Source: Nereocystis luetkeana (lineage: Eukaryota; Sar; Phaeophyceae; Laminariales; Laminariaceae). From it: a stretch of 64,000 nucleotides of DNA. Below, piece after piece: positions 11,404 through 60,300 of the stretch (its first letter is position 1; every line of letters starts with the position of its first letter). The notes beneath the pieces were generated by a model, which did no database searches, had not been told where the DNA came from, and was given only the letters and a program-made list of their open reading frames with translations. The stretch is from the NCBI GenBank assembly GCA_031213475.1, contig JARUPZ010000023.1:7520157-7584156 (forward strand), read 5' to 3'. Position numbers and translations under genes: made by a program.

Positions 11404-11434
<31 letters not shown>

Positions 11435-17400: not shown

Positions 17401-20400
17401 AAAGGCGAACAGCGCCGTTCTATTTTGGTCATGGCTCAGCACGTGCCAAGAGCAATAAAATAACAGGGCCTTCGGGTATGCGTAGAGTAGCAAGCAGTCG
17501 ATCACGTAATGCTCTTCCCTTGAGGTGGAACACAGAAGGTAAAAAAAGGGTAGCTTGGGGGGAAAAAAAAAAAAGAGAAAAAAAAAAAGAGACGATGACC
17601 ACCGTGGGATTCGAACCCACGAGTACGAATACATGACGACCTGAACGCCACCCGATAGACCGCTCCGGCAGATGGTCGATGTTTGGGCACCATGTTTTTT
17701 TATATCTAAAAGCCGGATATCGTATCGGATCGACCCACTGTCCGTCTTGCATTTTGTCTGCTACAGCGTTCCAGAGTATAATATCTCACACCTCCAACAC
17801 TATCGTACTCTTACGTACTTCGTACTCGTACTCGTTAATAAAGTGGAGCTGAAAAATACTCGTAAATAATACAAGGCTGCGCTCCGCGGGCGGCTACAGA
17901 CCGCCCGCTACGCTCGCTGGAGGGAAAACGCAAAAACGTGAAGCGGAAAAGAGATCCATGATTTATTTTACGGAGGGGACCATAGTGAATAGGACCAACT
18001 ATTGCTAGTAAAAATAGGGAAATATACCCCCGATAGGTTTTTGTGTGTGCCGCAGGTCCTATTTACTATCGCCCCCCGCAAATAGTGCGACCGGCGACTT
18101 GTAAATGCGGGGTGCAGGAAAAACGATGCCTGGCTATTTTCTCCATACCTTGTTATTTCGTTATTTCCATGATACATTCAATACCATATGCAAACTACTG
18201 CTGTACATACCAGGTATATCATGGAAAATGAGCCGCCAGCGGAGCGCAGCCTTGTATCTTGTATCGTAACCACCGTCTTTGTACCTGGCGTACACGACTG
18301 CCGCACGTATAAAAACTTACCTGTTGTACCTGGTTATGATATTATTCTGCGTATGCACGTACGTATACAGGCCTGAACTGTATTACGGGGGACCATAGTT
18401 AATAGGGCCTACGGTATACATAATAAAATATATATTTAACCATTTTTACTAACAATATTTGGTCCTATTAACTATGCCCCCCCGTAATAGTTGTACTGCT
18501 ATGGTGCTGTCTGTACTTATGAGGCAGGAACATATTATCTGGAAATTGGTGTAGAATCGGCTATCTCGCTCAGGTTTAACGGGATTTCGATTCTGAGTCG
18601 AGTTTCCACTTTTCGATTATTTTCGGAAATTAGAATGTTTGTCAGAGTGTTTCGGACGCTCGGTGTTTGTAAGCCAACGGTATGGAGAGCAAAAAAGCAC
18701 CATACATTTCGCCAAATTCCTACCTTCGCCCGAAGCATTTTTTTGCTCTTTTTCCAAGAATGTACCTCATTCAACTCCTATCTTGGGTGTTTATTTTGGG
18801 GAAGGGAGGTAACAAAAGAGACACTTTCGCAAACACTTCAAATCTTTAAAATAGTGCGGGATCGGCCATCTCGCTCAGTTTTGACGGGATTTCGATTCTG
18901 AGTCCAGTTTTGAGCATTCATGTTTCGACTTTTTCGGTAGTGGGATTTTTATCTTGAAGTTAGTGTTGTATTTTAATATTGAAGGTCATGTAGGAAAAAA
19001 TGATATTGCAGTTAGTGTGGAGATAGCAAAGAACGTAAATAAGACACGCACAGAAAACAAAGAACGTAAAGAGCGCAGAGAACATACGAGGAAGCCCACG
19101 ATCATTTGTCGTAGGCTCTCTAAAAGCGCATCGGTTCGTTGTAATCAAGTGAAAAAAGCAGAAAGACAACTGTAAGTAAGTCTATATATATGCAGTGTGA
19201 TTTTAAGTTCGTGGATGTCTTGAGCTACACAGCGCGAAATAACAAATTAAAGTGTTTCAGGAGGCGATATCGGTGGCAACCAAACCGCCAAACCGTGTAC
19301 CGGTACGTACAGTTTGTATATCAATATGTCATCCACGCGGTCCTTGTATTTCAGGACAGAGTGATGTTAATAGCTGCTTCGACTCTCTATCTTCAACCCT
19401 AAATCCCCCGCCCATGATCTACGGCCCATTTGTCTACCGCCGCCCTCCTCAGTACCATCTCCCGCGACCCCATCACCGCCCGCGGTTTTACCACCGTCCT
19501 GCAGCATGTTCAGCATGCCTTCACCAGCTAAAATATCCACTATTCCCATCAGGTGTAATACCGGTTCTATTTATTGCTGTCACTCATGGTTTCAGAAGAA
19601 GCAGCGGTTCCTGCCAGTTTATTTGCCACCACGCTGCCAAGCCCCTGATCCCTCGGTCTTCACAACGAGTATGCGGCGTAGTCCCTGCAACTCAGTCACC
19701 ACACCAGCTCATGGATGATGATGCTTCCCTGTCCCTTCCTATTTCGCTCGTTGTGCCCTCATTGCTCGCATGCACCTTTTGTACAACCATCAACTACCCT
19801 CAACCACGCCCGCTCTATCAAAACACTTCCTTCCTGCGAAAATCACCCCTTCAACTACACCCGCTCTATCCCCTGTGAAAACCCGCCTCCTCACACTGCA
19901 AAACGTGCACGACTCTATTTCCAAGTAGTTTATGCCCGAATCGTGGGGGGCAGCTCTAAAGAGGTTGACGCCGTTTATTGCGCGGATCAGATTTTATCCG
20001 GTTCGATCTTGGCTTTAGTGGCGTTCATGTCCGTTTTCGACCGGTAAACCGACGAAACCAGCCACACAAACTTCGCAGAACTAGCCAGAGTCTCTCCGAC
20101 AGGTACCCAGCTCAAAAGTCCGCTCCTCCAAAGACGTAGTTTGAGCTTTTGCCCACCAAAAGCTGTCTTTCGTCAGAAAAGCAAAAATAGGCCATTTTAT
20201 GATACCTGGTACGGAGATACCGTACTCGAGGTATTGTGCATCAGATTATGGGTATACACGTCGTCGGCAATAATTCGAAGCGCGCCGATGAAGAGGCTTT
20301 TTTTTTCTGGGTACCTCTCGGAGAGTAGGTGGACCCATTCCGCGAAGAATATGGCTGACTTCCTCTTTTTACGTCTATAACGGATATGACCGTAAAAAAA

Positions 20401-23400
20401 AAAACTCAAAATCGAACCGGAAAAAACCTCATCCGCATAGAATCGGCCTTGAGGATGTTTCCTATGCGGTTCGATTTCGAGCTTCAGATCTGTATTGTCC
20501 TCAAAAATGAATGCCCCTGCTTATGCAGTCCGAGTATGCAAAATCCGACTGGAATTTTTTTGATTTGACAATCCGATCATCAGATTTTTAAATCGAAAAA
20601 AGGCATGCTCTCAAAAATTCAAGACGTTATGTACAACAGCAAACAGCAGCAGAACGATCGATGAGTTGAATGGTGGCAACGGTATAGCGACGTTGCTTTG
20701 CGCCCGACACGCGGTCGGCGCGTCTCTCCGTGGCCAGACTACAGTCGGCTGGCGCGGGCTCGGGCCTAGAGACCAAGAGCAGCGCACTTGGCGCGCAACT
20801 CTCCGTAAATACGTACTCGTAGACCTACACTGCTGTACAGCAGCAGCGACAACAGTCAGCCCCATTGTGAAACACAAAATACCAAGACAGGTTGGCTCTA
20901 GCGCACCCGGCACGCCTCTTCGCCAGACCAGAGGCAGTCAGCCTTGGCTCGGACGCTTGGGTCCTACGCGCAGTGCAGCGCACCCAGCGCGTCTCTTCGC
21001 GGCGCCAAACCACAAAAACAGCAAGTGGTCTCGGCGTTTGCTCGAATCTCTGCACGCACAACAAATCTGATTTTTCCGCATAGGAAGACTGTTTCGATTT
21101 GCCAAGTTCACATCTGAAAAAGCAATCGGGTCAAAATCTGATGCTCAAAAATCGGACCGCATAGGAAACAGCCTTGAGACTCAACACCGCTCCACAAACT
21201 CGATATTTCACAATTCCTTCGTTCGACCCGAAACCGAATTTGCACCGTTCACGCCGTCTTGATTCACATACTGAGCAGATGTTGGCGAAAAGAAACAAGG
21301 AAAACAGATTTCGGCGAAAAAAAAAAAAAAAAACAGTATATAGTTGGATAATACAGTAAAAAGGTATTTGACCACCGTGGGATTCGAACCCACGAGTACG
21401 AATACATGACGACCTGAACGCCACCCGATAGACCGCTCCGGCAGATGGTCGACAACCTGTGCGCTGAAACTTGGGTACCTAGTGCCCTACCAACCGACCG
21501 CCGTGCGAAAATCACAACGACGCACGGTGCACACCTCGAACCGATCATCAATTCCCACCTAACCCGTTCAGCACCGCAGCCCCGTTTTGGGGTCAAATTA
21601 CTTAAAACATGACTGGTTCGGCCCCAAAACGGGACTGCAGCCCTACAAGGGTCAAAAGTATCCACCTGGTACGTCGTAAGTACTCGTAGATAGTTCAGGA
21701 CAGCATATGAAGCTAATCCGTAGGAACTAGCTCATGTTGCCGGGTGGAAACCGTAAAATCTGCATGATCTACAGTAGAATGTATATCCTGGGCTGGACCT
21801 GCACTAAACAGACCCTGCACATCATCTCATGATGGCAACCGAGGGACTACTCGTAGATTACATAAATCACAACCTGTCTGAGGCGTGCAACGTTGCATTC
21901 TCCCTATCTCCCATCTCCCCATCTCTTTGCGAGTGGAGCACTGGCTATGTGACTGTTAAGAGAGAGTAGAGAGGTATGGAAATGATACCTCTACTTGCAC
22001 TAGTACCTACTGGTACGAAGTTCTGGTTTTAATTCTCGCGTAATAAACACATGCTACGAAGTACGTTGATAAGATGCATCGCGGTCATTTCGAAAAGGCG
22101 AGGCAGAGCCACACCTCGGCCTGCCTCGACAGCAAGCGCACATTTCAAATCGGTTGTTGCTTGTACGAGCACAACCGCTAGCTATTGCTGCTGCTGCTGC
22201 TGCTGCTGCTCTAGCGTGTTGCTACTATTGTTTTAGTGGTATCGAGAGCGCCCCCCACGAAACCGAACGTCGGATGAACAAGAAACGGGGCGGTGGGGGC
22301 TACACGAAGGAAGGATGGGGTGGATCTGTGAGGGCCGTTGGCGTACATATAAATATGGAGGACCCAACGGTCGCTACGTTTCCGCCCGGGTGGTAGTGCG
22401 GAAAGTGTTGGTAATATAAATACTTACCCCTCGGGTACAAGCGTATTTCGTGTGCACAAACAACCTCAAAATGTTGATCGACGATCGGAATGGTTGATTG
22501 ACAGCTGACACCCCGTCGCAAACATCGAAGTGCACGACAGAGCGAGGTATATAGGGACCGGGATGGGTGGGAGGGGGGGTGTACTCAGTATCATGCATGA
22601 CCGTGGTCGCAGGATCAGAGACCCTCGCATCCCTACAATGCCGGGACGGAGCACGTCGAGTTTTCACCGACCAGGACATTGCTTGCACCGAGCGCGAAGC
22701 GCCGTGAGATGTCGGGCGAGTCGCATGAAAGATGAGCTGCATCCTACTAAGAACCCTTAGTACGGCGGATTTTCTTGCATATGGATGACAGCGTCGATGA
22801 ATTGAATGATTTTCTGGTGTGGCCACTTCCAGAGGCAGCAATGGGTTTACTACGTAACTGCCTCGAGGGTGCCTTAGCATATACACACTACGTGATACGG
22901 TCGTCCTCCTTGTGCGGAGTTGAGGTTATCCCCGCAAGAAAATTATTTCTATGAATCTATAAATAAGTCGACCGCCAGCCGTGGTGACTGCCCCCCTCCA
23001 AAAAAAACGATACCCTGATTGTCTAGCTCACGCAGTGAGAGGCGTGCGTGTTTTACAGCGTTGTCGCCAACCGACGCCAACTCAACCTATATATACCAGA
23101 TATATAATATAGGGGGGGGGGTACCCTGGGGTCAACCTCGAATCTACGAGGGCTGAACGGATACGAAAACCCGGAGATAAAAAGCCGAGAACGAGCGTAT
23201 CACATACCCACATACAGGCGCCCCCGGCCAATCCAACGCGCGTCACGATCGGGGTAGCAGCTTCCGACCGAAACAGCCAAGACTAACGGGAGGAGGGGGT
23301 CCTCAAGGGCACTGAGGAGGGCTACACGTACCTAATCTGGTTCGTGGTTACATTGTTTGTTTCGTGCACCATCTGCAGTAGGCCGCGGGGTTGTTTTCTT

Positions 23401-33700: not shown

Positions 33701-36700
33701 GATGGTCGATCCCGCACCTGTGTTTGGAGTACTTCCCGACCTCTCCGTACTGCGCGAGCGCCGCCCCAAGGCACATAGCGCCCTGCACCTGGAAATCCTC
33801 CAGCCGTGAGGACATTCGTCCGACGTCCACCTGCGCCTGCAGCCTGGGTTGGGACCTGGCAGCGTTGCGCCAAGGGGTAAAACCGGCACTAAGCATGGAG
33901 CTCAACCGAAACACCAGCGTTCACGGTCAACAATATGCGCGCCGGCGCCATAAACCGTCCACGTTCGATGCGGCTTTGTATCGTTCGCTTGTGTCAGCTC
34001 TACTGCTTCGAGTCTGTGCTCTCCCTCCCAGGCGATGCCGGCGCGAGAAAATAATACAACAGACGGACTCCGCATTCCACCAACTCCCGCTAGAGCAAAC
34101 AATATTACGGGGGGCCATAGTTAACAGGACCAAATATTGTTAGTAAAAATGGTTAAACATATAGGTTTTTATGTATACCGTAGGTCCTGTTAACTATGGT
34201 CCCCCGTAATAGCACCTTCGGGGATATTTGCACGGTTCGTTATCCTTCCATCCATCGCGACGCAACCCCACTACGCGAGTTCTGACAGACACGAGGTCTG
34301 TTTAGCGCTTGGGTGAATCACTCGCTGTCCTCCTCGCAGTCATCGCGCCTCAACTCTATAACCAATCATCAAAATCTACAGCAGCAGCAGCAGCAACAGG
34401 TAACTTGTACGTGAGCATTATTTACTGGTAGTAGAATGAGGACGTACTGGAGCCGCCTCGCCAAAGTGCGCCCTCACCTATCCATCGGGTCTACGCTCAA
34501 CGCCACCCGCGCACTGGCGTCAACGGGTTCGAGAAGGTAACGGTGGCGCATTTTCCCGCTCCCGCCTGCCGCCCCTTCCCCCGCCCCCAAGGCATCGACT
34601 TCGTCCTTCCTGGCGATCAGTCTTCGTGGGCACAAACAGCGGCAAGAGGAGAGCAAGAAAACAGGGTTGTTCCGAGCTCCAAGGGATAGCACGATAAACA
34701 AAAAACGACTCAAGGTGAGACGCCTTCTTCTTATGTTTTTAAGTCTTGTGCAGTCGCCGGTTTGAACCCAGAACTCACAGCGTGCTAGGCGTTTACTGCA
34801 AGGGACGAAGCAATCAAGAGGGTGGCCCTTGAGAGCGATATATGTGGAAGCAACAGTTGCGTCCGCGGGATTCTGCGCGAACCACTGCTTGTACTGCAGG
34901 TCGCAACACGGCTCTGAAAAAAGTTGGCTGACGTTGTTTGCGGGATTGCTGCAAGGTAAGGGATTTCTCAAAAACGTTGCAAAACAATAGCACGACGTGG
35001 CCTCCTCTCGCCTGCTGATGACCACTTCCGCCTGCTCCACAGGAATGTCAGATAGGTGCATCGAGCACGGGTTTCCGTCTTCCGCGGGGTTCCAGTAAAC
35101 CGCCAACTGGGTCAGCTGCAAGTTCTTCTTAACCAGATGATCCCCGCAACTGTCGCCAGCCACCGCCGCCCCTTTCTGCGCCCCCGACGCGGCCTCGCCA
35201 CTTGGCGGACCAGCGGAAGCCACTCCGCCGTCTTCCCCGCCGGTCGAGTCCGCGGCGGCTTCCCTCGACGAGGAGAGGGGGCCGGACCGAGGGCTCGGTT
35301 GAACCTCCCACCCTTGGTCTGTTGAGTCGATCTGCAGCGACTCCAACGTGACGCCGACGTAGAACGGCATCTTGGGTTGGGACAGGCGGTCCTGCGTCGA
35401 TGGGCGCGATTAACATAAGGAGGGCGGGACAGAAAGAGACTCGGTAAGGCTGCGTGGAACCGGATCAGCGGTATGGGCAGGAGGCAGTAAAGCCCTGGGG
35501 CGCATCAAGGCGAAGGTGGCGTGCAAACTGCAGATAAACGTGTTCGTGGCGTGATGCGTGCGCAGACAAAAACGACAAGATCCCATGAGAAAAGAGACGC
35601 CGCTGCAATTGATCTTGATCTCAACGTCTGAACGCACCTATATAGAAGCCGTCATTTTGCGCGGCTCTCTCAGCTTCGCGGCAGGAAGGAACACCGGCGC
35701 GAAGGGTCTTCGCCTGACAGCGTTGAGTGCAAACTAGTTGGGCTTTTACTATTTCGAAATGTACCCCAGACCATAACAACTATCAATACTACGAATACTT
35801 CGTATTAATAGTAGAACGCTGTGTTTGTGTTGTCGTCATTGGTTCATTTGAAGGGAGGTTCGACTCGTAGCTATTGCCGAACCTTCTACCTCATCCTTCA
35901 ACGTTTTCAACCCATTTATCGTCAATAAATCCCTGCGCGCCTGCCCACTCCCACCTGACGATTGAACGTTCCAGTGCCGTTTCGCAACACCGGCAATGTA
36001 TCTAGTAGAGCATATTCGATTGGTCCTTCCGGACGTTAATGCTACTTCAGTGAAGACAACCATAGTTGGAGCGCCTACTGCTACAGCAGCACATTGAACG
36101 TATCAATCGATTGAGAAAAAAGGGAAGAGAAGACCCTGCCACGATCAAACAACCGCAGGCATCAGACAGAAGATGTGTGTCCTCCCCTTCACCGCATGAA
36201 AATGGAGAAGATTCGAAGCGTGAAAAAAAAAACAAAAAAAACGAGCCTAAGCACGGCGGGAGGGAGGTACACATGTTTTGCTCGCCACTCATTTTTTGCT
36301 AGCCATAGTATTTTTGCCATTGACCACGAATCCCTTTGGAGGCGAAGCACTCCAGGGGGGGGGGGGGGGTGTACTCATGTCATGCATAGCCGTAGTCGTT
36401 AGACCAAAGACCTCCGCATCTCTACATTGCCGAGACGGAGCACGTCGAGTTTTCACCCACTAGGCAGCCATTGTATGCACCAAGCGCGAAGGGCCGTGAG
36501 GTGTTCGGCGAGTCGAAAGACGGGTGAGCTACATCCTACTGTAGTACGAACCGCCGTGAGGCGGACTTTCTTATATATGGATGGCAGCATCGAACTAATT
36601 GGGGGGGGGGGGGGGGGGACTCAATTGAGGAGGGGGGGGGTGTACTTGATAGGAGAGATGTACTCAATCTCATGCATGGCCGTAGTCGTATGACCATAGA

Positions 36701-39700
36701 CCCTGGGGGGGGGGGGGTGTACTCGATAGGAGATATGTACTCGATCTCATGCATGGCCGTAGTCGTATGACCATAGACCCTCGCATCCCTACAATGCCGG
36801 GACGGAGCATATCGGGTTTTCACCGACCAGGCAGGCATTGCTTGCACCAAGCGCGAAGCGCCGTGAGGCGTCTGGCGAGTCGCATGAAGGGTGAGCTGCA
36901 TCCTACCCTCGGGGGGGGGGGGGGGGGGGGGGGGGGTAAAAAGGAGCCACTTCAAGTAAAACATACCTCGTAGCGAACATGAACATCTCGAACGTGTATC
37001 TGCAAAGAATCGACAATCCGCGTGATGAGACGATCCGTCACCCACTTCTGCACCCCAGACCCCCACCGAGCTTTTCCTGTTCCTGAAAAATGGGCCACGG
37101 CAGACACATGGTCACACAAACGCGAAACAGGACACAATCAGGGCATCCTCAAGGGGAGAAGCATACTGCCTCAGGCCGTAAAGCGCGCAGCGGCATGCCA
37201 GAGGGCTTTGCACACGCGCGACCAATCTACTGCGACTGGCGCCATGAGTTTTTAATGATATTGCCGGACCCGCCGGAGACCGTGGGCATCGTAGCCTCGA
37301 GTCCTACACAGCTGTGGGCGTTGTCCCTCCCCGCCGCTCTATTCTTAACGTTGCATGGGCTTTCGCCCTGAGCGCCAAACGTTAATGGGACGATGGCGGC
37401 CTTCTTTCTGTACAGAGTAAACGCACGGGCTTCGCAACGGCAATTCTTCCAAGGGGAACAATATGGCCGTGAGTACAGGTATTCTGGAGCTGAGTGACCT
37501 TCTGTGGGCCCTGCGGAGGGGTCGTCCAGCAGCGGCGACATTCGGAAGAGCTCTGCCGCTGCGATCTTGGCGCTCTTCGCCGCCCGTTCCCTCCTTTTCA
37601 CAGCCCCCGCGTCCCACTCGAATTTGGGCTCAACGACCAAGAACACCTGTCGGCATGACACAGTGCACTGCAATGTTGACCAGGTACTGTAGGCGCTGGA
37701 GAAACACATGGGAATGCTACTCGTACAGCTTCACGTAGGAGTATTGGCGGACTACGAAATCATGGGAAGGAACGAGCACCCCACGAATGAGTCAACACCC
37801 GTTCTTTCAAAAACCCACCATGCGCACGGGAGTGCTATCAATAGTACATCAATGTTGGTGTTGAACGAGCGGTGGGTTCGAACACAACAAGATCGGGGAG
37901 GACCCATAGTACTTAACAACAGGCCTGCCGTATGCCATGGAATACATCCCTCGCATAACACTCCGCTAAGCCTCGAGCGCTCCTGTCTACAACCCGGGGC
38001 GCTTGAGGGCGGGGATTAGCGTAACCATGACCGGGAGGCAACTTGTCTCAAGACGGCGGTACCGTACCTACGCCGCACGGCCTCTTTTTCCTCACCTGGT
38101 CAACGTCGACGATGATGGGGTCCTTGTGGAGGCTCGACCAAGGTATTCGCATTTCTAAGCGGCCGATGATGCCGTGCTTGAGCGATAGCGGGAGTTCCAG
38201 CGTGTCCAAAAAGCGTTTCTTGATGTGCATGTCCTCGAGGACAAGGTAGCCTTCAAGAATGGCAGTGGCGCATTCCAAGCAATGGCGGTAGCACGCCCAG
38301 TCGTTTTTCACGCAGCAAAAGGGAAATATGGAAGTTATGTTCATGGCGCGCGACGGAGCCGGAGTGGGGTATGCGGGTGGGAAGTCTGCAAGTGATTGCG
38401 TGGTGGTTAGAGTGCCCCATTACAGGTTATCATCACACACTCGACCTTCTGAGGACACATGAGCGGCGCACGGAGAAAACTACTACGTGGAAGAGTTTTA
38501 ATAATTCTACTGTACCGGTACTGCTGTACCTTCCCTCTACATGCAGCGTACATGTGTATAGCGCACTCGCAGTGCAATCTCGAAGACCGCCATGTGGAAG
38601 GCGACCGAGGCACAACCTCATCGAGCCCTTTCGGTCCATCATACGGGCAAAACATCCAACCACCGCACCCTCTAGCGGTATCGTGCGCAACATCGCCGAG
38701 CGACCGCGATCAATGATGTACAGTGTGCAAAAAATATATTTCGTGCCATACCGTCTAGACCACCTGCTACTATAAAAGCGTCTATACAATTGGCTTGCAG
38801 GGCTGGGGTTACTCGCACCAGTATCTACAGTACTAGCGCACGGAAGAATCGCACGTAAGCAGTACGTATCCGGTAAAGAGTCCAAGTTTCGGACCCTCGC
38901 GCAAGTACGGAATTTACGAGAGAACAGCGAGTGCCTAATTACGCCGTTCCAGACTCTACTCCAGACGCGACGATGTCAAGGGTTAACCCCGTAAGGCCTT
39001 GAGGATTGCACTCCCGTTGTGGGGACAAAAACACTCGGAAGTAGAGTCAGATTTACAGTAGGTACACACATGTGCGGTGCAGTACTAAAAGGGTTGAGAG
39101 ATGGGAGGTGTCAAAGTGTAGTACAGCAGCACAGCTACAGCAGCAGCAGCAGCAGCAGCAGCAGCGGTAGCAATGTACTTTCTCCTAGCGTAGACTACAG
39201 CAGTCCCAGTACAATACAGTAGTACGTAGTACCTACCTGGCACAGGGCACCTAATAAGAAAACGAGCAATGAGGGAGACAGGCTGATATTTTATAAAATG
39301 ACGAAATACGTCAGCTGTGAGTTCGACTGATTACATAGTTGATACTCAACTTTGCAAGCTGCGTAATATGTCTCGTCTATATCCCGTTTTTACTGAATTT
39401 CCAAATTTTATGATAAGCCGTTCGCGCGTATTCTATATGTATCCCCTTGTCAAGGATATAGGTCAGTGACTCCCCTGGATGCTGCCCGGGTCAACAGGAC
39501 AATATACATAATTGTAGGAAAAACGCGAAATTCGGGAGTCGATATACCTGGTACTGCAGTTTAGGGAAAACGCATCCATTCTCAAACAAGAAATCCAGCT
39601 TGGACCAGCTTTCCTGCTTCTTGATATCAGTACGTACGATAGCTGTCCTGTACACTGCATGCCAGGTACCTGGTACCAGGCATGTACAGGTATGATTTCG

Positions 39701-46886: not shown

Positions 46887-47137
46887 TGTTATGGTATCTC
46901 CTCTCCCCAGTAGCGGCGTTATGGTTTGTGATAATCGTCCCCTCATCATCTGGCAGGCGTTATCGCCTGCTTTTCTGATGAGGGCCTCGTCCCTTCGTTC
47001 ACAAGACATCTGGCGAGGCAAACAGCAACTAATACAATAACTTATAACATCGCCAAGCACCTCGTGTGTGACCAGAACAGAACCAAAGGCATCAACCTGC
47101 TAGCAGTAGGCGGCCCCTAGGTCCGTACTGCCTCACA
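46887..47137 (+). repeat. 5' LTR of the Ty3/gypsy element
   Basis: Begins TGTTATGG and ends CTCACA; shares 'gcaggcgttatcgcctgctt' and 'aaaggcatcaacctgctagc' with the 3' LTR. Contains the inverted pair GCAGGCG/CGCCTGC. Confidence 0.85.
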
Positions 47138-47309
47138 CGCAACACTGGCGTCGTCGGCAGGTGAGGCCCTGGCAGAGCAGGAAGCAGGCTAGGACCCGTC
47201 TCCCAGAGAGAGACAGGCCCCCAACTGCGTTTCCGGGGATGTGTCTGACACACACCCCGCTCCTTCTCGCGCGACAACGGATACCGCCGCGTTTGATCCT
47301 ACCCAAGAG

Positions 47310-47800
47310 TACTGCACGCGCGACATCGTGTTCTTCTAGGAGCCCCCTCTTGCTTTTTTTCGCAATGGACGCCTTACCGTTTTACTGTCGAGGGCATCTC
47401 TTATTCCTGCGGCGAACAGTTCTTCGCTGCCGAAAAAAGGAGCCACCTCTTCAGAGACCACCAGACCCTACAACACATCATGCGCGTGTCTGACCCCCGC
47501 CTGCACGAGCAATATGGACGAGAAGTCCGTAGCCTCGATCTCGCCGTGTGGGAACGCGAGCGAGAAAATATCGTGCTTACGCCAAGTTCGCTCAAAACCC
47601 AGCCATGCGAACCCACTTCTTGGACACAGGCAACAAACTTCTCGCGGAAGCTAGCCCTTACGACCTCATATGGGGCATCGGATACAGGGCAGACGCTATT
47701 CCTGCACGCCAGCCGCCCCTGTGGCGCGGCTTAAATTTTCTCGGCGAGGCTCTTCAAAACGTGCGACGTCTCTTCCGCGACCGCGCGCCGCCACCGACGC
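47310..47800 (+). pseudogene. NADAR (YbiA/DUF1768) domain remnant inside the retroelement
   Basis: Family signatures are readable in order: CGEQFFAAEK (the Y-x-x-x-E-Q-x-x-x-A-x-K helix), then GREVRSLDLAVW, then KFAQNPAMRTHFLDTGNKLL, EASPYDLIWGIG, and PPLWRGLNFLGEALQNVR. NADAR proteins are N-glycosidases of ADP-ribose-linked substrates; members remove ADP-ribose from guanine in nucleic acid or act in riboflavin-pathway by-product metabolism. It sits between the 5' LTR and the protease, where gag is expected. The region is broken like the rest of the element. Its being part of the element, and not a separate host fossil, is inferred from position and orientation. Confidence 0.82.
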
Positions 47801-48064
47801 GCCCCCAACCGTTGTCTCCTCGGGGCACCTCGCCCTCTAGTAGAGACCGCATCTTCAAAGTTGACCCTTCGACGCGACAGCAACTGTGCCCAAGTGACAC
47901 AGCTGCAGTCGCCTCCCTGTCGGGATATTCCGACTCCCCTACAAACGTGCCATCAGACCACGGCGGCGATGTTCTCGAAGTAATGTCTGCCCCCCGCTCC
48001 GGTCAGTTGCCCCCCTTGCTCGCTGAGCAAGGGCCTTGTCTTGTTGCTGGTATAGTAAATTAAC

Positions 48065-48305
48065 CATAGACGATTCTTCCTTCACCACCAAAATCAAGAT
48101 CCACAGTGGCCTAGCTGCTCTGCAGCTTGAATGTGCTACCCTTTTGGATACGGGCTTGCCGCAGACCTTCATCAACACCCGCGCGTTCGATAGCATGAAA
48201 CGCGTGGGTGTTACCTCTGCCACTTGCGAACGACACACCCCTCCCAGGTCGTGGGGCGGCTTTGGTAAGTCTCTGCCTCTTCAGACCGCGGTTACAGTAC
48301 GCTAA
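48065..48305 (+). pseudogene. Aspartic protease region of the retroelement
   Basis: Short region with the retropepsin-like LDTGLPQTFIN motif (D-T-G) in the position expected just upstream of reverse transcriptase. Confidence 0.7.
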
Positions 48306-49189
48306 AGCGTAAAGTTCTTCCACGGCGATACACCTACTGCGTCACTCGCCGTATGGGCATACGTCGTCCAATCTGAAGCGATACAACACGATGTGCTACT
48401 CGGACGCGACTGCTGGATGCGGTTCCAAGACCGCTCTTACCGTACATTGGCTCCCTGTTCGATGTCTCTCCCAGAACTACAGAGGGCGCAACAGCGTTTG
48501 TGTCCGACTCTTCGGATCAACCTGAAAGCTTCCCCCTGCTGTATGCGGGTGACACCGGCATCACCTTGTCCCGCAACCATCGACTTGTCGGTGTCGATTT
48601 GGTCCGCAGTAATGGTGCCCCTACTCTCGCCGGTTGCTACCTGGCAAACATGCTGCACGCGGCCACAGGTTTTTCTGCGGAAGAACAAATCGTGGAAAGT
48701 GGCCGCCAGCTCATCCCATTAGCCGGCGCTGCGGATCTAGATTCAGGTGCCTTGCTTGGCGCCTCCTCTAACCCGCTATTGCGCCTTCCCCTGAAAACTG
48801 TCCTGTCCGATGCACCGGCCTCTTCTTTACGTCTTCACGGCGTTGATTTTTCAGTCCCAGGTCCAGTTCCCCCCAATTCCATGGGCGCGGACCAGCTCTC
48901 ACCGCCACAGTGCCTGGATCCCTTCGTGCGCCATCTACGCGATGAGACAGCCCCGACACGCGAAGAATTCGGGGCCTCTTCGGCCCCGCCTGTCGACCAC
49001 AACCCTTCACCTGCCCTGCTCGAACGATTGAGCACAGACCAACGCACGAGCTTTCTACAGGTATGGAATCGTTTGCCGTCGCACATGCGCGAAATCGCAT
49101 TTGACTTGCGCGGTCTCGGTTGGACGCCAACCGTCATCACTCAGTCGGGCGATGCCCTCGCTGAGTTCTCCGACGTGTTCTCGAAGTCT

Positions 49190-50330
49190 CCGGCCGTGCT
49201 CCCCTTCAAGGTAACTGTTCCCCCGAACACCTCTCCTGTCACGTCTCGACCCTACCGCATCAATCCCCCGACTGCAAAGCAAGTGGACGCGGTTCTGGAT
49301 AAGTTCCTGACGCCGGCCTCACCCAGCACTCCACATCTCCCTGGGCGAGCCAGTGGTTCTCATCCCGACGAAATCCGGTGGCATCTGCATCACGGTGAAT
49401 GACAAAAAACAGAACAAACTCAGCATTCGTGGCCAGTTCCCCATCCCTCGCGTCGATGAGGTTCTCGACAAGCTTGGCACCGGTCGAATATTTTCACTCT
49501 TCGACCTCGTCTCTTCTTTCCACCAGATAACAGTGCACAAGGACACGATCCCTCTCACTGCGTTCTGTACACCCACGCGCCTTTCGAGTGGCTGGTTATG
49601 CCTCAAGGAAACAGCGCTGCTCCAGGGTGGTTCGTCAAAGTAATCAACGAGGTCATCAAGGTCCTGGACCGCGTCGCCACATACCTCGACGACGTCATCG
49701 TCTTCGACGCCGATCCCTCCCTTCACGTCGCAGACATGAAGGAAATGTTCTTGCGATTACGACAGTACAACCTCAAGTTGCCACCTTCAAAGGCTATCAT
49801 CGGCGTCACGGATGCAGATTTCCTCGGTCACACCATCTCTCCAGCCGGAGTCATTCCGAACGCGCAGAAAGTGGAAGCACTGACGAAAATGTCCGGGCCG
49901 AAAGACCTGAAACAGCTACGCTCCCTTTTATGCGCACTTTCCTACTACAGGAAATTCCTGCGCGATATGGCAAAGCGCATACGACCCATGACTTCCCTTC
50001 TGAAACAAGGTGTCAAGTTCGTCCTTATTCCAGAAATGGAAGTCATAGTGCGGAAGCTTCTGGCCGAGTTGACTACGCCCCCGGTCCTCGTCTATCCCAA
50101 TTGGGACGCCGTCACTGATAATTCCCGCCCTTTCCTCCTCTACTGCGATGCCAGTGTGAACGGTTTCGGTGCCGCCCTCGAACAAGAACAAGACGACCAC
50201 ACCATTCGTCCCATCGTGTTCGTCAGCCGTGCTACCATCGAGTCTGAACGGCACTGGACTCCGCTCGATCTGGAAGCGGGCAGCATCGTCTGGAGCATCA
50301 AGCGCCTTCGTGGCTACCTTTGAGGTACGA
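49190..50330 (+). pseudogene. Reverse transcriptase and RNase H region of the retroelement
   Basis: Recognisable blocks are RPYRINPPTAKQVDAVLDKF, IFSLFDLVSSFHQITVHKD, AAPGWFVKVIN, the YLDDVIVF catalytic block, FLGHTISPAGVIPN, the tether LKQLRSLLCALSYYRKFLRD, and RNase H FLLYCDASVNGFGAALEQ. The class is Ty3/gypsy. The region is interrupted in several places and not functional. Confidence 0.9.
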
Positions 50331-51699
50331 AATTCCGATTTTTTAGGATCACAAGGCGCTCGAAAGGTTCAGCGATGACTGGAATTCCTCACTGCGTACA
50401 ACTACACTCTGAAATATCGCAAAGGCAGTGCCAATGGGAACGCCGACATCCTGTCCCGCCTGCCCTTACCTGCGACGGAGCGAGACCGCAACGGCCCCAG
50501 CAGTCTCACTCCTTCCGACAAAGAACGCGTCTTTCTCATCTGCTCTCACGTCGTACTCCAGGGTGGGCCCTCCGCCGTGCGTGTCAGTTTGGGTGGGCTG
50601 GCGCCCTCCGACCCGAGCTCAGGCTTGGGTGGGCTCCCGCTCTCCCCACACGATTTCCGCGATTTTCGCCGACACGGGCCCCGAATGAGGGTTGACGACC
50701 TCGATGCTCCAACTGCTGAATTCGTTGCCCGTGCTCTCCCTTACGTCACTTCGCCAGGTCCCAGCTGCGCCCTTCCTGCCAACACATGTACCAGCAATTA
50801 TCTCGCCGCGTCTGTGCTCACAGTTCCTGTTGCACCTCTGCCCGTTACAACCGAAGGCATGGACCCCGGCCGACGCGCCACTTCCTCCGAGCCTTCCCCT
50901 TCACCCACCGACGACGACGCGCCGCGCTCTAGCTCTGTAGCGGTCCCCGTCTCATCCACGGTCGCCCTGGGCAAAGCAGCGTGGGAAACCCTCCCTCCTG
51001 CTCTGCCTATCCATCACGACTCAGCCGAGCACCCAACGAATTCAGGTCCTCTGGAGCCCTCTGCTGTGTCTCATTCAGCCTCACCTGTCGCCCGGACCAA
51101 CCGTGATTAAGTCTCGGTTGTGCCCGCGGCTCTGCCTCGGCTACCTTCACCTTCACAGGCGGCTCTGCCGTTCCTTCCTCCGCCGGGGCTCATTTCGTCT
51201 AGGACCCGCCGTCGCCAAGCTGCCGCTGCTCTCAAGCCTACGACCGCCGTGGACTATGGTTTCGCTCGTTCGCACCCTACTCCACCCACCGCCCCACGAC
51301 CAGCCCCCACGGCGCGCACGCCGCGCCCGCCTCGGACTATCTCCCCTTCAGAGGATTCTCCCGGGCCCCCCATCGACCCTGTCCCGACAGTACCGATTCG
51401 ACCCACTACCGATGCGGTCACACCTACTCCGTCCTTGCTTGGTACCCTCCCTCCGGAGGGTCCTCGGCGTGCCAGCACTACAGCCGCCCTCCCCGAGATA
51501 CCATCACCGGCAGAGATCGAATTAATCGAATTTGTAGAGCGATACATGTATTCCGATTGAGCGCGTGAGCAACGCGCTGAACCGGTTTGTGACGCCGCCA
51601 TTCGGCACCTTCTTCTTGGCAGCCCCTCCGTCGTCCCCAACGATTTGTGACTCACAAACGCCCCCCGTTGTCCGAAGTGCGCTCCTTAGCCGATAGAGG

Positions 51700-52280
51700 A
51701 CGACATTACACAGACGACGACGGCGTCCTCCAGCTTGTGCGGAAGTTGACGCCCCCGGCTCTGGCTTGTCCCGACAATCCTGGCGAACGTGCTGACCGCT
51801 TTTTGGACGACGAACCTACGCGAATCTGCGTCCCGCTGCTTATGCGTCCGTGGATTATGCAAGCCTGCCATACTACCGCCTCGTGCCACCTCGGCGTCCC
51901 CGAACGCTATCGATGCTCAAACGCTTTTATTGATGGATTGGCATGAGCATCTGCACGTGGTGGTGGCTTCTCCGTTGTCTCCAATGTCAGGCGCGCAAAT
52001 CTTCCTGACGGACGATACGTTGGTCCATTCTCTCCCTTCCGTTACCATCGGGCCCTGGCGTCGCGGTGAGCGTCGACTACTTCGGTCCCCTTCCCGTCAC
52101 ACCTCGGGGCAACTGCTACATTAATATCTTCTCTTCGCGGATAGGTTCAGCCGGCGCGCAGACATGTACGCAGTCTCAGCTGCGAAATTCACGGCTGAAG
52201 GCACCACCGACATATTTAGTCAATAAGTACATACCTCTTTGAGGGTGTCCGTTCAGTCTGCTCTCCGACAATGGACTGCA
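51700..52280 (+). pseudogene. Integrase region (partial) of the retroelement
   Basis: A zinc-binding-like HTTASCHLG stretch (H-x-x-x-x-x-H-L-G) is followed by core-like VDYFGPLPVTPRG and LLSDNG. The region is broken and gives way to an inverted fragment of the same element family. Confidence 0.7.
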
Positions 52281-52450
52281 CTAGGCCAGTTGGGACCTCG
52301 CGAAGTGACGTAAGGGGGGGCACGGGCAACGAATTCTCCAGTTGGAGCATCGAGCACGTCAACCCTCATTCGGGGCACGTGTTGGCGAGAATCTCGGAAA
52401 TCATGTGGGGCGAGCGGGAGCCCACCCAAGCCTGAGCTCGGGGAAGAGGG
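52268..52450 (-). repeat. Inverted fragment related to 50,580-50,765 of the same element
   Basis: The minus strand here matches the plus strand at about 50,590-50,765 (shared 'gggtgggctcccgct', 'caactg(c/g)(t/a)gaattcgttgcc'), giving a 170-base inverted repeat about 1.7 kb apart. It differs enough to be from another copy of the family. Confidence 0.8.
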
Positions 52451-53182
52451 CGCAGTGTCCACGTGTAATCAGCCACAGCCTTGCAAGTTAGACGTGTGGG
52501 AGTGGGTTGTGAAGTACCGCATCTTCGATCCATTCTCCGAATTCTCCGGATTGTTTTTGTTCATGCCTGAGTTGTTACAGCTGACCTCCTCTTGTGTGCC
52601 GTTATCGGCTCGGTCTCACCTCGATAGCAAGCTGTTGTCGTTCGTTGAGAGAGTCCTCGTGGGGATTTCCTCCGTACCTCGCTCCTAAATCCTCTCTGGC
52701 CACGGGGTGGCCAGACGCCACGGAGTTGAGTGTTGGTATTGCTCAGCGAATGCGACGTGGGGTTAACTGACATAGCACGTGATGGGCAACTGACATGGAC
52801 GTGATGCGCAAGACTCATGCACGGTGTGTGAACGGTATGTGGTTTGACTGGTTTCTTTCTTCACTTCGGTGGGATTGACTAACCCCACGTAGCGACACAG
52901 GGCACCCGTATCGACCACTACAGCCGATACGGGGTTTCCATTACCCAGACAATGGCCTCCCCCGCGGGGGACACTCCATTGTATACCTACGTCGATATGA
53001 CAGCGAGCCATCCTACGGCCTTATCGCTGTCTTACACGATGCACCCTCCATACGTCACTGGTCAGGTCAGTCGACGTACATCACAGAATACCCTGTCGCC
53101 CTCCTGGGCGACTTCTGGAGCCCGTAGCGCTGCAACAGAGTTTCCTATGAATCAGCATATACGGCCCTTATGGGTGGGCTAG

Positions 53183-53447
53183 TGTTATGGTACCCCCTCT
53201 CCCCTGTTGCGGTGTTATGGTTTGTAGCAATCATCCCCTCATCATACCTGGCAGGCGTTATCGCCTGCTTTTCTGATGAGTGCCCCGCCCCGTCGTTCAG
53301 AAGACATTTAGCGAGGCAAACAGCAACTAATACAAGAGCTTATAACATCCTCAAGCACCTCGTGTGAGTGACCAAAACAGGGCCAAAGGCATCAACCTGC
53401 TAGCAGTACGGGTAGTCGGCCCCTACATAGGTCCATACTGCCTTACA
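53183..53447 (+). repeat. 3' LTR of the Ty3/gypsy element
   Basis: Begins TGTTATGG and ends CTTACA. Slightly longer than the 5' LTR because of small insertions near its 3' end. Confidence 0.85.
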
Positions 53448-53475
53448 CTTAAGAAGAAGCAGCTCTTTCAGCTGC

Positions 53476-54078: not shown

Positions 54079-54150
54079 GTCGTTGTAGCTCAGTGGTTAG
54101 AGCACCTGTCTTACTCACAGGGGGTCGAGGGTTCGATCCCCTCCAATGAC
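54079..54150 (+). tRNA. tRNA-Val(UAC), bacterial/organellar style
   Basis: A 72-base cloverleaf: acceptor GTCGTTG/CAATGAC (with one G-T pair), D arm GCTC-AGTGGTTA-GAGC, anticodon stem CCTGT/ACAGG with loop CTTACTC (anticodon TAC), five-base variable loop, and T arm GAGGG-TTCGATC-CCCTC. The A box TAGCTCAGTGG, the B box GGTTCGATCC and a downstream TTTTTT favour Pol III transcription. The body (GAGCACCT..CTTAC..GGGGGTCG) resembles bacterial tRNA-Val(UAC). Pyrimidine at position 37 is odd. No CCA is encoded. Confidence 0.78.
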
Positions 54151-54368
54151 TACGTATACTTTTTTCAACCACATGACATACTATTTTACCAGGTACGTTG
54201 ACGTGTACTGCGGTTTCTGCTTTTCGCGTTTCATTTTGCACGTACGTGAGCAGGCAGGAGAGAGCACAGCGTCAGGCGGCCACAACAAGTAGTCAGTTTG
54301 ATCTGCTCCTTCAGTGCGACACACAACACACGCGTATCGCTACTCGCAACCGACTTATCCACGGAGAA

Positions 54369-57300
54369 ATGAAGACCGCCGGTGCGATCGCAGCTCTTCT
54401 TGTTACCCTCGGCTGTGCCCATGGTTTCGTGGTACCTGTGCCTGGAGCAACAGCAATGCGGCCGCAGACACAGCGAGCTGCGGAGCGCATCAACGAGTCC
54501 GTCGAGCTGGAGAAGCCCAAGGTATGCCAACACTGCTGTAGCTAAGCGATCGTGCTGCCCAGGGCTGCTGCTGCTGCTGCTGCCCGGTGTGCCTTCCCTT
54601 TGCAGACAATGGCGTGCGCCATCATATCGTACCTGCCATGTAAACTACTGCTGTATCATGTGAAGTTTGTAACCAGTCTCGTCTCCAGCATGTACCAGGT
54701 ACATACCAGGTACATACCAGGTATGATACTGCTACAGCAGCATTACGGCGAGGATAGGAGGAGGTGCGCATGTTCTTTACTTTTTCAGCATCTTGGGCGA
54801 AGCAGCAGGGAAGTTGTGTTATCTATGGCAATCGCACCTCGCTGCTGAAAGACAGAGAAAGAGAGAGAGGGGGGGGGGAAAGGGCGGGAGGGGCGGACGA
54901 AAGCCCCATACCGATGGAGACATTCGTGAGAGCGGTCGCGTATTGTTGCCTTGCAGGAAGCCCCACAGCGCTTTTGGATGCCGATTTCGACACGCAGGTG
55001 ATGCCGTCACACGAAAACATCTTGATAATAAGTCAATTTTGCCTGCAACTACGTAAGCAGTACCTGGTACGTAATTCGTACCAGGTACCTGGTATATACT
55101 TACTGGAAGGCAACCGGCACCCGACACACCTGGTCTGTGCGCAGGTTGTGACCATGGAATCGGTGGAAGCTGGCGATAAGAAGGTCTACTGCCGGTGAGG
55201 CCACATACCAAGAGTTCTTGGGCAATGGGCAGCAACGAACTACTGCAGTAGTCGAATAGATGCTGTTGAATCGCACCAGAGCAGTTTAGTTGCAGGAAGG
55301 TACACGAGTCTCGAGTCTCGGAGTAAAACGTGTCATGCTATTATACGAGTCTCACATGAATTCAAACCCTAACAACAGCAGATCGGCAGTACGAGCAGAG
55401 AACGTCACGACGATGTCACGATTGTACTGTGTACTCGTGAGTAGAGTTGCACCCCGGCCTCGTAGGAACCGGGTACCCGATCGGGTGCGGGGCGGTTGAG
55501 GTGGAACCGGAATCGGGTAGCCGGGTCCCGGCAGACACGGGTACCCAGGTACCCGGGTACCATACACTATTTGCTCCCCTTTTTGCGTTTGAGCGGCGGC
55601 GGATGAGGTGGACACGGGTATCTGGGTACCCGGGTACCCGAGTACCCCGGTTACCATACACTATTTGCTCCCCTTTTTGCGTTTGAGCGGCGGCGTGGTA
55701 AGGCGGACACGGGTACCCGCGTTACCATACACTATTTGCTCCCCTTGTAGCTTTGGAGCGGCGGCGTGGTAATAAGCACGGCAGGTATTAAGAGGGGTAT
55801 TACTCTCGGTCTGTCGTCTGCAGGGGCGAGAGGCGAGAGTCTAGAGGCACAGCCGTTGCAGTGTAAAATCAACGTATACCCCAGTCTTGGGCCTCCATAT
55901 AGAACAATTGACGGGTACGCGGGTACTCGGGGTACAAATACCCGCAGTTCCGTGAGTTGGACCGGGACAGTTCCGGTTCCGACGGTTCCGGGTACCCGCC
56001 ACCGGGTACCCGGTTCTCAGTCAGACGGGGTGCAACTCCACTCGTGAGTCGCGTTGCTCCAGCATGCACATACATCAACGAATATCATACATACAACACC
56101 TGGTATATATCACGAGTACGTAATAATGCTGTTTTGTACAAGTGAGACCTACCAGGTATGCCAATGGAAACGCGAAGTTCACAAAAAAAAATCGAACATT
56201 TTCACACCTAGGACATATCAGATCCCATTTTCGGGATCTAGATCTTTTGAGGCAGATACATCCCTGATCTACAGGGATCTGCGGGATCTAGATCATGTTT
56301 GTTGTATAGGATCTGTGCGATCTAGTTCCTATGTACACGTTTGCCTGGGTGGGATCTGTAGGATCTAGATCTTATACGAGAGTATACATGTTTCTGTGTG
56401 TGGGATCTATATGATCTAGATCTTACACACACGTTTGCCCGGGCATGATCTGAGTGATCAACCTGATCTGCGCATGTTTGACTGGTGAGATATTTATGAT
56501 CTGCGAGATCTAGATCATACATGCATGGAGGGATCTGCATGATCTAGATCTTACGTACATGTTTCGGTGGGTGGGATCTGCATGATCTAGATCATACATA
56601 CATGTTTCGCCAGGTGGGATCTGCAGATCTGCGTGATCTGCACATGTTTGAGAAGGTGGGATCTGTATGATCTAGATATTACATTCATGTTTTGCCAAGT
56701 GGGATCTGTATGATCTGGGTGATCTGCACATGTTTGCCAGGTGGGATCTGTATGATCTGCATGATCTGCCACATTGCACTCGCAGATGAAGATGTACATG
56801 CTTATGTTTGCTCGCGGGTGACTATATGCGTTGGCTCGTGTATATCGGAACCGTTGTATACGAGATCTGACATACATTGACGACGTCGCAGCCCACGGTG
56901 GTGGTGGCGGCTAGCAGCTCAAGCCCCCCCCCGATGGCCATCAACCACACAGCCACAGCTAGCTGCACAAGCACGCCGTCGCTTATAAAGCACGTACGGC
57001 ATGACAACTGTCGGGGGCGGCAGCTCTAATAGTGACACTGGGGCAGCAGATGATGTCGGCAGCGGGCCGGAAGTGGGTCCCCCGGCGGATCCCGGAGGCG
57101 AACCGATCGAGTTGAATCTTGCACACATATTTGGCCGTGTGCGATCCGTATGATCTACATCGTACACGCGCGTTTGCCCGGGTGGGATCTGTATTATCTA
57201 GATCTTACATACCTGGTACATGTTTCGCCCGGTGGGATCTGCATGATCTGCGTGATCTGCACACGTTCGCCAGGTGGGATCTGTATGGTCTGCGTGATCT

Positions 57301-60300
57301 GCACATGTTTCGCCAGATGGGGTCTGTATGATCTAGATCTTGCATACATGTTTGCCCGGGTATGATCTATGTGATCTGCCTAAGCTGCACATGTTTGCCT
57401 GGTGGGATATATATGATCTGCGAGATCTAGATCATATATGCCCGGAGGGATCTGTATGATGTAGATCTTACATACATGTTTCGGTGGGTGGGATCTGTAT
57501 GATCTAGATCATGCATACATGTTCCGCCAGGTGAGATCTGCAGATCTGCGTGATCTGCACATGTTTCAGAAGGTGGGATCTGTATGATCTGCCTGAAGTG
57601 TGTATGTTTGCCAGATGGGATCTGTGTGATCTGCATGATCTGCACATGCTTCAGAAGGTGGGATCTGATGTAGATCTTGTGCATTACTTTTACGTATCTG
57701 TGAAAAAGGATCTAGATGATCTAGATCCTGATCTGTCCTAGGTGTGAACATATTGCTTTCTAAGAACTGTCGAAAATTTCCTCGCACCGCCGCTGTGGGG
57801 GGAAAAGATAAAAAAATGTTAGATTTTTTCGTTTTTTTGCAGGCGGCGCATTTTGTGTTTTTCTGGTTGCAAATTGTCAACACGATGAAAGAAACCAGCT
57901 CGTGCGACGATCGACGCTCGATCTTGACATAGACTCAGCCAACAGCCAATGACCAACCCGCTCGGTATCTGGCAAGCCAACGGATATAGATAACGGCCTC
58001 GAAGATATCAGGTGATTCCATGGTCTAGGGGGCGAGAGCTTGCCGGCGGCGTCCTACGGTATCCTCCTAAACCTGAAAAAAAACTATTTTTTGCCATTCG
58101 AGACGGATGGAGAAGTTTTGTCTTGTTTGTTTTGTGCACCCCAGCGGCCAATTTTTATTTTCATCATACGCCTGGTCAGCTCCCGCCACATCACACCGGC
58201 CATGGTGTGAAGACGGTGACCCTAGGGTGGGTCGGAGCCTCTAACGAGCGCACTCTGTTCAGAATTCATGACGGAGTCGTTTGTTTTGTCGATCGATGTC
58301 TGTCGAGGACTTGGAATCTCGCCGCTTTGAACCAAAGATCGGCCTCAAGCCGATGTTGGCCCAACATCGGCCCGACATCGGCCTCAAGCTGATGTTGGCC
58401 CAACATCGGCCCGCCATCGGCCCCAGATTTGCTTTTTTCGGGCTTTTCCGAAAGTTAGGAACTTTTTTTTCTCTAAACGTGCCCATAGGAAGCGTGTTCT
58501 AAAAACAAATGGAGGGTATCTTTGAAATTCAAACTTTTTATTGATACTTCGCTTTCCCATTGGCATAGGTCTAAGTAATGAGGCTTCAAAGAATGAGCCA
58601 AAAATAGGCGTATATACGTGCCTTTTGAGCCGTACCCTACGCAACGCACGCGGGACAAGGTTTCCTGGCCCTCCGTCTGAATAGCCACAGTGTCCGATCG
58701 TACCTAATCGTTGGCTAAAAAAGGTCCCACGAGTTCACCTCTCTGCTTCTACGTGTCTACTCAAGTTGAGTTTCACCTATTTCGTAGCTGCAAATAGCTC
58801 AACTTGTACGATTCTTCTTTTTTCTTCGTCCCACTCGTCATCTTCCTGGTTCGTCTTACAATCTCTTGAAAATAGAAAATGTCAATATTAATAGTTACAT
58901 CCGGGGTAACATATTACTATTATTAATAGTAGGCCCTTAGGTCGATCTTAGCGAGGACTGCTTTCTATTGTTTTTTTTCAGTATTTTGCCGAAATTTCGG
59001 TAACGGGAAAATCCTGAAAAAAGCACTCCTTCTATGCCCCTCCCCACTACGGGTTCGTGCCTTGGATTGTTTATCGTGAGAAGACTCCAGCCCTTTCTTC
59101 CCGTTCGACCCGCGTCGAATTTCGCCTCTCAACGCTACGAAGGCGCTCTCAGCAATTGGTTCCTGTCTATTTTGTCAAATAAAGTCAAAATCTCACCACG
59201 GGCGGCATTCGAAATCGGGTTGGTACCAACGCATTCGAGGCTATCCACTGTTAATAGACCACCGGGGCGACCGGCCTACTAATCCCAAGTACCTGGTAAG
59301 AAATATCCGACACTACAGCACCGCTCCGAAGTAGCCCGCCGGCCTGAAAGGACTTAGGGCAACTTGATACGACAGTACAAGAAAAGGAAGCGACAGACAA
59401 CGTATCCACGGGGAGTGTTACCAGAAGTCCCCACCAGTGTTTCACCTATTACTATCCAAACGAAGTGTGTACAGAAACTACTGTATGTATACCCTGAACG
59501 GCATGCAGCAAGGGGTTCAGTCAGGCCATGTATAGGTACAATTGAAGCCCGAAGCAGATGACGCCCAACTTAAAAAGTAGACAGAGAGGCGTACCCGGAA
59601 CCTTCTACCCAACAGTAGCTACGATCGGGCGCTGGCCATTCAGAGAGAAGGCCAGGAAGCCTTGTCCGGAGTGCAATATGCAGTGTATACCTTTAAATGG
59701 CTCAACATGTATTCGTACAAAAAGGCGTAACTATTTTCGGCTGCTGCCCTTCAAAGAATGCTCTTCCTGATTTGCATCACACAGGTGTTGACGCGCGCAA
59801 GAACGAGTAGGACACAGAGACAATTCGAGAGTCAACTGTCTGCAGTTTATTTTTTTATTTGAGGAACACCCGACCTTGGTTTGCAAATCCCTTACCCTAA
59901 TTCTAATTTGTCTGTATATTTTGGCGAAACGCCTGTAGTCGCGCCCACTCGACAACCGGTTCCTAAGAGTTCCGCCGTGGCCTTGATTGTACCCAGACGC
60001 TCGTCATTTCGTATTAGCGTTGTTTTTAACCAGTTGCAAATGCTTCAGAAAAATATATCACGAAGCCGTTGTTCACAGCGTCCTTGGAGTATACGGTCGA
60101 TGGCGTACTTCTTACATGGGTACCGTACATGGATCCTATTGGTGTTAAGGTCGACTACAACAAGCCGTCGTATTATGTAAAAGCTTTTGACGTCGTCATG
60201 CGTTTAGATTTTGGGAATGCTACCTTGGGGTCTAAAAGTCTAGAGACCACCGAAAAAAAATCCGACATTAAGGACTGCACATAACAAGCATGGTCAGATA

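Follow-up and report, generated by a model that had tools for sequence, protein, structure and literature searches.

The 64,000-nucleotide stretch of the brown alga Nereocystis luetkeana analyzed here (contig JARUPZ010000023.1, positions 7,520,157 to 7,584,156; hereafter the window) carries a decayed Ty3/Gypsy-type retrotransposon headed by a YbiA-type NADAR domain, with a linker, a protease, a reverse transcriptase (RT), an RNase H and an integrase after it. Of this identification we are practically certain. NADAR-bearing Gypsy elements are already described: Dinatale et al. (September 2025; PMC12477816) report one Ectocarpus Gypsy lineage whose families all have NADAR at the N terminus of Pol, and the window copy repeats that published observation. 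The present analysis adds the position of the domain, with no room for an upstream gag in this copy, a survey of its active site, its conservation relative to the protease and the linker, and the grouping of the tested element domains in a clade near bacterial and viral NADARs. Among the matches listed in a literature search (titles and abstracts, with subscription papers mostly outside its reach), no further report of a NADAR domain in a retrotransposon was found.

A NADAR domain at the head of a Ty3/Gypsy-type polyprotein

The NADAR domain lies at positions 47345-47790 and is a single domain split by a frameshift, with PF08719 matched in two overlapping frames. The frame 47297-47731 matches profile positions 9-100 (E 3e-13, 50.8 bits) and the frame 47533-48060 matches positions 97-162 (E 1.3e-18, 68.3 bits), so that both pieces exceed the curated cut-off of 35.1 bits; these E values, together with the homologues described below, rule out a chance match. 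The domain had been proposed in a first-pass annotation made from the sequence alone, and the profile search bears this out; the motifs named there, their order and their orientation also read as claimed.

The remainder of the element was delimited by aligning its two long terminal repeats (LTRs) and by tblastn with natural relatives, for the most part the predicted proteins P0159, P0162 and P0163. On the + strand, the resulting order is N-terminal extension, NADAR, linker, protease, post-protease region, RT-RNase H and integrase. Percentages below are tblastn identities, and lettered residues are those of the P. nicotianae NADAR.

46887-47138, + strand: 5' LTR, beginning TG and ending CA or CAC (local alignment with the 3' LTR)
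47220-47344, + strand: N-terminal extension of the polyprotein (P0163 residues 22-67 against 47220-47357, 41%)
47345-47596, + strand: NADAR, first part (PF08719; 59.5% to P0159; equivalents of E43, K50, R79, W89 and R93)
47575-47790, + strand: NADAR, second part, in the other frame (PF08719; 53% to P0163; equivalents of E125, D130 and W133)
47791-48057, + strand: Pro/Ser-rich linker (matching stretch of P0159 predicted disordered)
48060-48449, + strand: retroviral-type aspartic protease with an LLDTG motif (60% to P0159 residues 324-453)
48485-48943, + strand: post-protease beta-rich region without a Pfam name (44% to P0159 residues 475-625)
49019-50344, + strand: RT and RNase H (PF00078, PF17919 and PF17917 for 49460-50320; 55% to P0163)
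50343-50741, + strand: end of RNase H and start of the spacer between RNase H and integrase (RH-IN spacer; tblastn to P0162 and P0163)
51597-52275, + strand: zinc-binding region and start of the core of the integrase, truncated (P0163 residues 765-993, in three pieces, 57-60%)
52271-52591, - strand: inverted piece of the element's own RH-IN region (P0162 and P0163, 27-35%)
53183-53448, + strand: 3' LTR (local alignment with the 5' LTR)

The succession of protease, RT, RNase H and integrase is that of Ty3/Gypsy elements, the integrase being truncated in this copy, and the LTRs flank the whole, in agreement with the type of element proposed in the first-pass annotation. The RT is 71% identical to that of P0163, from Ectocarpus sp., over 246 residues, as would fit a brown-algal source near Ectocarpus, and a search of viral contigs with the window RT piece returned no relative. 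Since Pfam gave no protease or integrase match to the window's own broken pieces, these two assignments rest on tblastn with natural relatives, on the DTG motif and on a weak fold match of the P0159 model to the protease of feline immunodeficiency virus (best probability 0.75, E 0.11). For the protease of P0029, the Pfam match lay below the cut-off only (Peptidase_A2B, E 0.29). The post-protease region is conserved with P0159 and P0160, which are 44% identical to each other in it, and its strands fall in a low-confidence part of the P0159 model. As to a chromodomain after the integrase, the corresponding region is unmatched in the window copy, which has lost the integrase end, and Pfam names none in P0163.

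The window copy is old and broken, as had also been noted in the first-pass annotation, because a TAG stop (47337-47339) interrupts the N-terminal extension, the frame changes near 47345-47357 and near 47575-47596, and the integrase match ends at 52275. The place of the remaining integrase is occupied by the inverted RH-IN piece; the corresponding inverted repeat arms (50601-50767 and 52287-52453) are 167 nt long and 90% complementary, and their source is the RH-IN spacer. In the local alignment, the LTRs, which start with TG and end with CA (the exact end being CA or CAC), are identical at 226 of 252 aligned positions, with 18 transitions, 8 transversions, 14 gap columns and a Kimura two-parameter distance of 0.112. 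No target-site duplication was matched by eye in this old copy, CAGAA preceding the 5' LTR and TTAAG following position 53448. A long proline-rich stretch separates RNase H and integrase at 50742-51596 and has no counterpart in P0163; it may be an extra spacer specific to the family or may correspond to the inside of an intron of the P0163 gene model.

The NADAR domain occupies the place of gag

NADAR starts about 200 bases past the 5' LTR. It lies between that LTR and the protease, where gag would be, as the first-pass annotation had stated. Homology to P0163 (from its residue 22) begins at 47220, i.e., 82 nt past the end of the LTR at 47138, and P0159 residues 15-54 match 47238-47357 at 45%; the former leaves no room for an upstream gag in the window copy. 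A recognizable Gag is usual in Ty3/Gypsy elements, and we did not use it as defining. No Gag family appeared among the Pfam matches of the scanned window frames and pieces or of the five long relatives, the sequences at hand including no intact whole element. In P0161, NADAR is preceded by 225 residues that Pfam does not match, compared to 45 to 58 residues in P0159, P0160 and P0163. Gag could lie elsewhere in intact elements or be supplied by another element.

The predicted structure of P0159 has a mean predicted local distance difference test score (pLDDT) of 52.8 and a predicted template modeling score of 0.35. Its NADAR part is mostly above a pLDDT of 90, the linker is low and the protease-like region is middling; the low confidence throughout the interval between NADAR and protease was read as disorder.

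NADAR is a trait of the element family

A protein search for NADAR (E <= 1e-3) returned 41 matches. Several of these, among them P0002, P0003, P0004, P0008, P0027 and P0029, hold NADAR, linker and protease motif in one frame, a letter of the motif being changed in some. In addition, five long relatives were found (P0159 to P0163). In P0159, P0160 and P0161, NADAR is followed by the linker, the protease motif and the post-protease region, while P0162 and P0163, both from Ectocarpus sp. CCAP 1310/34 and each predicted as a single protein, combine NADAR with RT, RNase H and integrase. The latter two are without linker and protease, perhaps because introns were placed there in the gene models, and the whole domain order was not seen in any single protein found. 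Because in the relatives one reading frame joins NADAR to the protease motif or to RT and integrase, the domain is a trait of the family. According to the first-pass annotation, absence of the domain from all other copies would have marked it as an unrelated host fragment trapped between the LTRs; other copies and other families do carry it.

This is in line with the Ectocarpus lineage (Gypsy-12_Ec32 and others) described in PMC12477816, which, as described, shares the placement of NADAR. A chromodomain is reported after the integrase of Gypsy-12_Ec32, at the end that the window copy has lost. The same paper describes NADAR in ORF1 of Tx1 long interspersed nuclear elements (LINEs) of Crassostrea gigas, i.e., in the first coding part, as in the window element. 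These differ in being LINEs of an animal host and, according to that paper, divergent matches. NADARs within RNA-virus polyproteins (PMC9503650), as described, offer a further parallel: there, too, the domain is part of a polyprotein, and replication passes through RNA. They differ in belonging to animal viruses with an RNA-dependent RNA polymerase.

The active site is mostly kept

Residues of the P. nicotianae NADAR (or of the E. coli C7 NADAR) that bind ADP-ribose or act in catalysis are named in PMC11543638. For E43 and K50, they were mapped through an alignment of an element protein with 8bau, the P. nicotianae structure; a separate alignment served for the remaining sites. Counts were made over 39 rows, gaps not counted, many of which are decayed copies and two of which are the window's own pieces; P0001, P0036, P0038, P0039, P0161 and four proteins with no domain match are outside them. 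At the N-terminal sites, E43 is kept in 11/11 rows and K50 in 11/12. The mid-domain sites are similarly kept (K75, 20/23; R79, 20/23; W89, 24/25; R93, 26/27), as are the C-terminal ones (E125, 33/35; D130, 33/36; W133, 31/36). The position of Y84 is occupied by Phe in 22 of 24 rows and by Leu in the other 2. Over the ten active-site columns, the majority residue has an average frequency of 0.92, compared to 0.78 over 151 columns.

The catalytic Glu of NADARs is placed in the last strand, with Asp in the BC4488 type and His in the phage type (PMC11125620). The Glu at the E125 position, which the window copy has too, places the element NADAR in the YbiA type. The NADAR part of the P0159 model, a relative and not the window copy itself, adopts the YbiA fold, with structural matches to 8bau (Foldseek E 3.7e-12) and 2b3w. 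The P. nicotianae protein, which hydrolyzes guanine-ADP-ribose (PMC11543638), has mostly the same ADP-ribose site as the element NADARs, although it stands outside any retroelement and is 31% identical to P0159 in the structural alignment. The kept catalytic residues speak for catalysis.

A remnant of a DarT1-NADAR toxin-antitoxin pair was considered and rejected, since no ADP-ribosyltransferase was among the Pfam matches of the scanned element open reading frames (ORFs) and since the active site is of the Glu type, not of the Asp type (BC4488).

NADAR is as conserved between families as the protease

Eight proteins with both NADAR and protease were compared in 28 pairs, and mean identity was 58.9% in NADAR, 55.9% in the protease and 36.9% in the linker. 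For the five more diverged of them (10 pairs), the values were 57.2%, 51.2% and 27.5%, respectively. These identities are at the protein level, several rows being partial or decayed, and are no substitute for a ratio of nonsynonymous to synonymous substitution rates. NADAR is thus as conserved between families as the protease, and the linker is much less so, indicating that the domain was probably constrained while the families diverged.

The tested element NADARs group in one clade close to bacterial and viral NADARs

The first tree drew on the two window pieces and on 40 of the 41 hits, the exception being P0001 as a near-copy of the window. A domain match was present in 38 of these 42 rows (none in P0016, P0017, P0020 and P0025), and spans of fewer than 80 profile positions were dropped except for the window's second piece, leaving 22 rows labeled as element. 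Of these, 21 grouped together; the discordant one, P0039, was placed with rows from bacteria and viruses. For the second tree, P0039 was unlabeled in view of this result, 11 more of the 22 were removed (P0013 and P0023 as frame-shifted mixtures, the others thinned as near-copies), and P0159, P0160, P0162 and P0163 were added. In this tree of 70 rows, and counting after these choices, all 14 element rows formed one clade (bootstrap 100; Shimodaira-Hasegawa-like approximate likelihood ratio test [SH-aLRT] 92).

A branch supported at 98/86 joins the element clade to seven bacterial rows, namely Alteromonadaceae, Microbulbifer, Teredinibacter, Lewinella, Saprospiraceae and two unnamed ones. The neighboring group, supported at 99/93, consists mostly of viral contigs (20 of 22 rows) and includes P0039. 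The element NADARs hence group near bacterial and viral ones. In PMC12477816, other blastp matches are reported to be almost exclusively bacterial. The sample comprised hand-picked loci (22 of 80 bacterial and 21 of 80 viral) and eleven further rows counted as bacterial (four with bacterial names and seven unnamed, including P0036 and P0038); the one other eukaryotic NADAR in the tree was a fragment of 8bau. Similarity to any single relative is modest: the closest bacterial locus was 48% identical among the best 80 of 125, and the closest phage-collection match was 49.6% identical over 40% of P0029 among the 15 listed of 663.

What NADAR could do for the element

We propose that intact elements would encode an active ADP-ribosyl-glycosidase as the first domain of the polyprotein and that the element's own protease would release it. 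The enzyme would then act on element RNA or cDNA and take ADP-ribose off it, either while reverse transcription is under way or ahead of integration; the best-known substrate is guanine. The identity of the element and this enzymatic role, taken jointly, seem to us close to evenly balanced; the role on the element's own nucleic acid, taken by itself, is put forward tentatively. NADARs of several kinds hydrolyze guanine-ADP-ribose in vitro (PMC11543638, PMC11125620), and Ectocarpus siliculosus is reported to have homologues of poly(ADP-ribose) polymerase (PARP) (PMC4245714), so the host genus has ADP-ribosylation. The kept active site and the apparent constraint would fit the counter-defense suggested in the first-pass annotation, would fit other ADP-ribose chemistry as well, and would also be compatible with a role in the particle. 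Since the active site is mostly kept and the domain appears constrained, the role is directly testable with the purified domain. If the element's own nucleic acid is the substrate, brown algae would provide a case of nucleic-acid ADP-ribosylation, best known from bacterial toxin-antitoxin systems, that bears on the control of a eukaryotic retrotransposon.

Several points weigh against an action on the element's nucleic acid. To our knowledge, no nucleic-acid ADP-ribosyltransferase acting on retroelements is known in brown algae, and the window copy itself carries Glu in place of K75 and Leu in place of Y84. According to PMC11543638, YbiA of E. coli works on riboflavin intermediates, and no substrate is known for free-standing NADARs; moreover, activity in vitro alone was insufficient for an antitoxin effect of NADAR versus DarT1 in E. 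coli (PMC11125620). An enzyme directed instead at small ADP-ribose or NAD-derived signals, or at an NAD-type RNA cap, rather than at base adducts on element nucleic acid is possible, though we consider it rather unlikely. It is argued in PMC9503650 that the main targets of phage NADARs are low-molecular-weight ADP-ribose derivatives, and in the tree the element domains have NADARs of viral contigs and bacteria as neighbors; however, the NADARs of RNA-virus polyproteins, the closer analogy, are argued in the same paper to act on macromolecules. Chromatin offers another target: NADAR would bind ADP-ribose at damaged or PARP-marked sites and help choose or clear integration sites. Ectocarpus Gypsy elements with chromatin-reader domains on the integrase (PMC12477816) and the Ectocarpus PARP homologues (PMC4245714) would suit this, but NADAR sits at the opposite end from the integrase, and we hold such a role to be improbable.

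The position of the domain also raises the question of Gag. NADAR could be a substitute for it, packaging RNA or building a particle through a nucleic-acid- or ADP-ribose-binding surface, with catalysis secondary. This is compatible with homologous coding that begins 82 nt past the LTR in the gag position, with the lack of a Gag family in Pfam matches of the scanned frames and relatives, and with the low-confidence, disorder-like part of the P0159 model between NADAR and protease. However, keeping the catalytic residues would then be unnecessary, and Gag could come from another element or lie outside the sequences at hand; in P0161, 225 residues precede NADAR. NADAR is, moreover, compact, and we know of no assembly activity for it. 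We regard such a substitution as unlikely. The same low weight is given to a broader proposal that keeps the enzymatic role, namely a Gag-less LTR lineage in which a NADAR acquired in a single capture from a bacterium or phage takes the place of Gag, accompanies the reverse-transcription complex and removes host-defense ADP-ribose from element RNA or cDNA, as an antitoxin-like counter-defense inside a retrotransposon. LTR elements are known to capture host sequence, and NADAR could in principle be an unrelated host gene fragment trapped between the LTRs. We rejected this, giving it almost no weight, on the grounds that in several diverged families NADAR still shares a frame with RT and integrase or with the protease motif, that the tested element rows form one clade, and that the published survey reports NADAR in all families of the lineage (PMC12477816).

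Other features of the window

Outside the element, a tRNA-Val (TAC) gene lies at 54079-54151, about 630 bases past the 3' LTR, and two tRNA-Leu (CAG) genes lie on the - strand at 17596-17677 and 21369-21450, in the same orientation and about 3.8 kb apart. The ORF at 34477-35409 (- strand) matches VPS13_N weakly (E 1.7e-5, under the curated cut-off), and Pfam gave nothing for the four other ORFs scanned, of which one lies on the + strand. The long - strand ORFs, including that at 8055-11918, might be parts of a single large host gene. Nine related 140-nt repeats are clustered at 56278-57599, several of them at a spacing of 128 nt, and a separate dispersed repeat occurs in direct and inverted copies at 165-365, 36377-36539 and 36705-36906.
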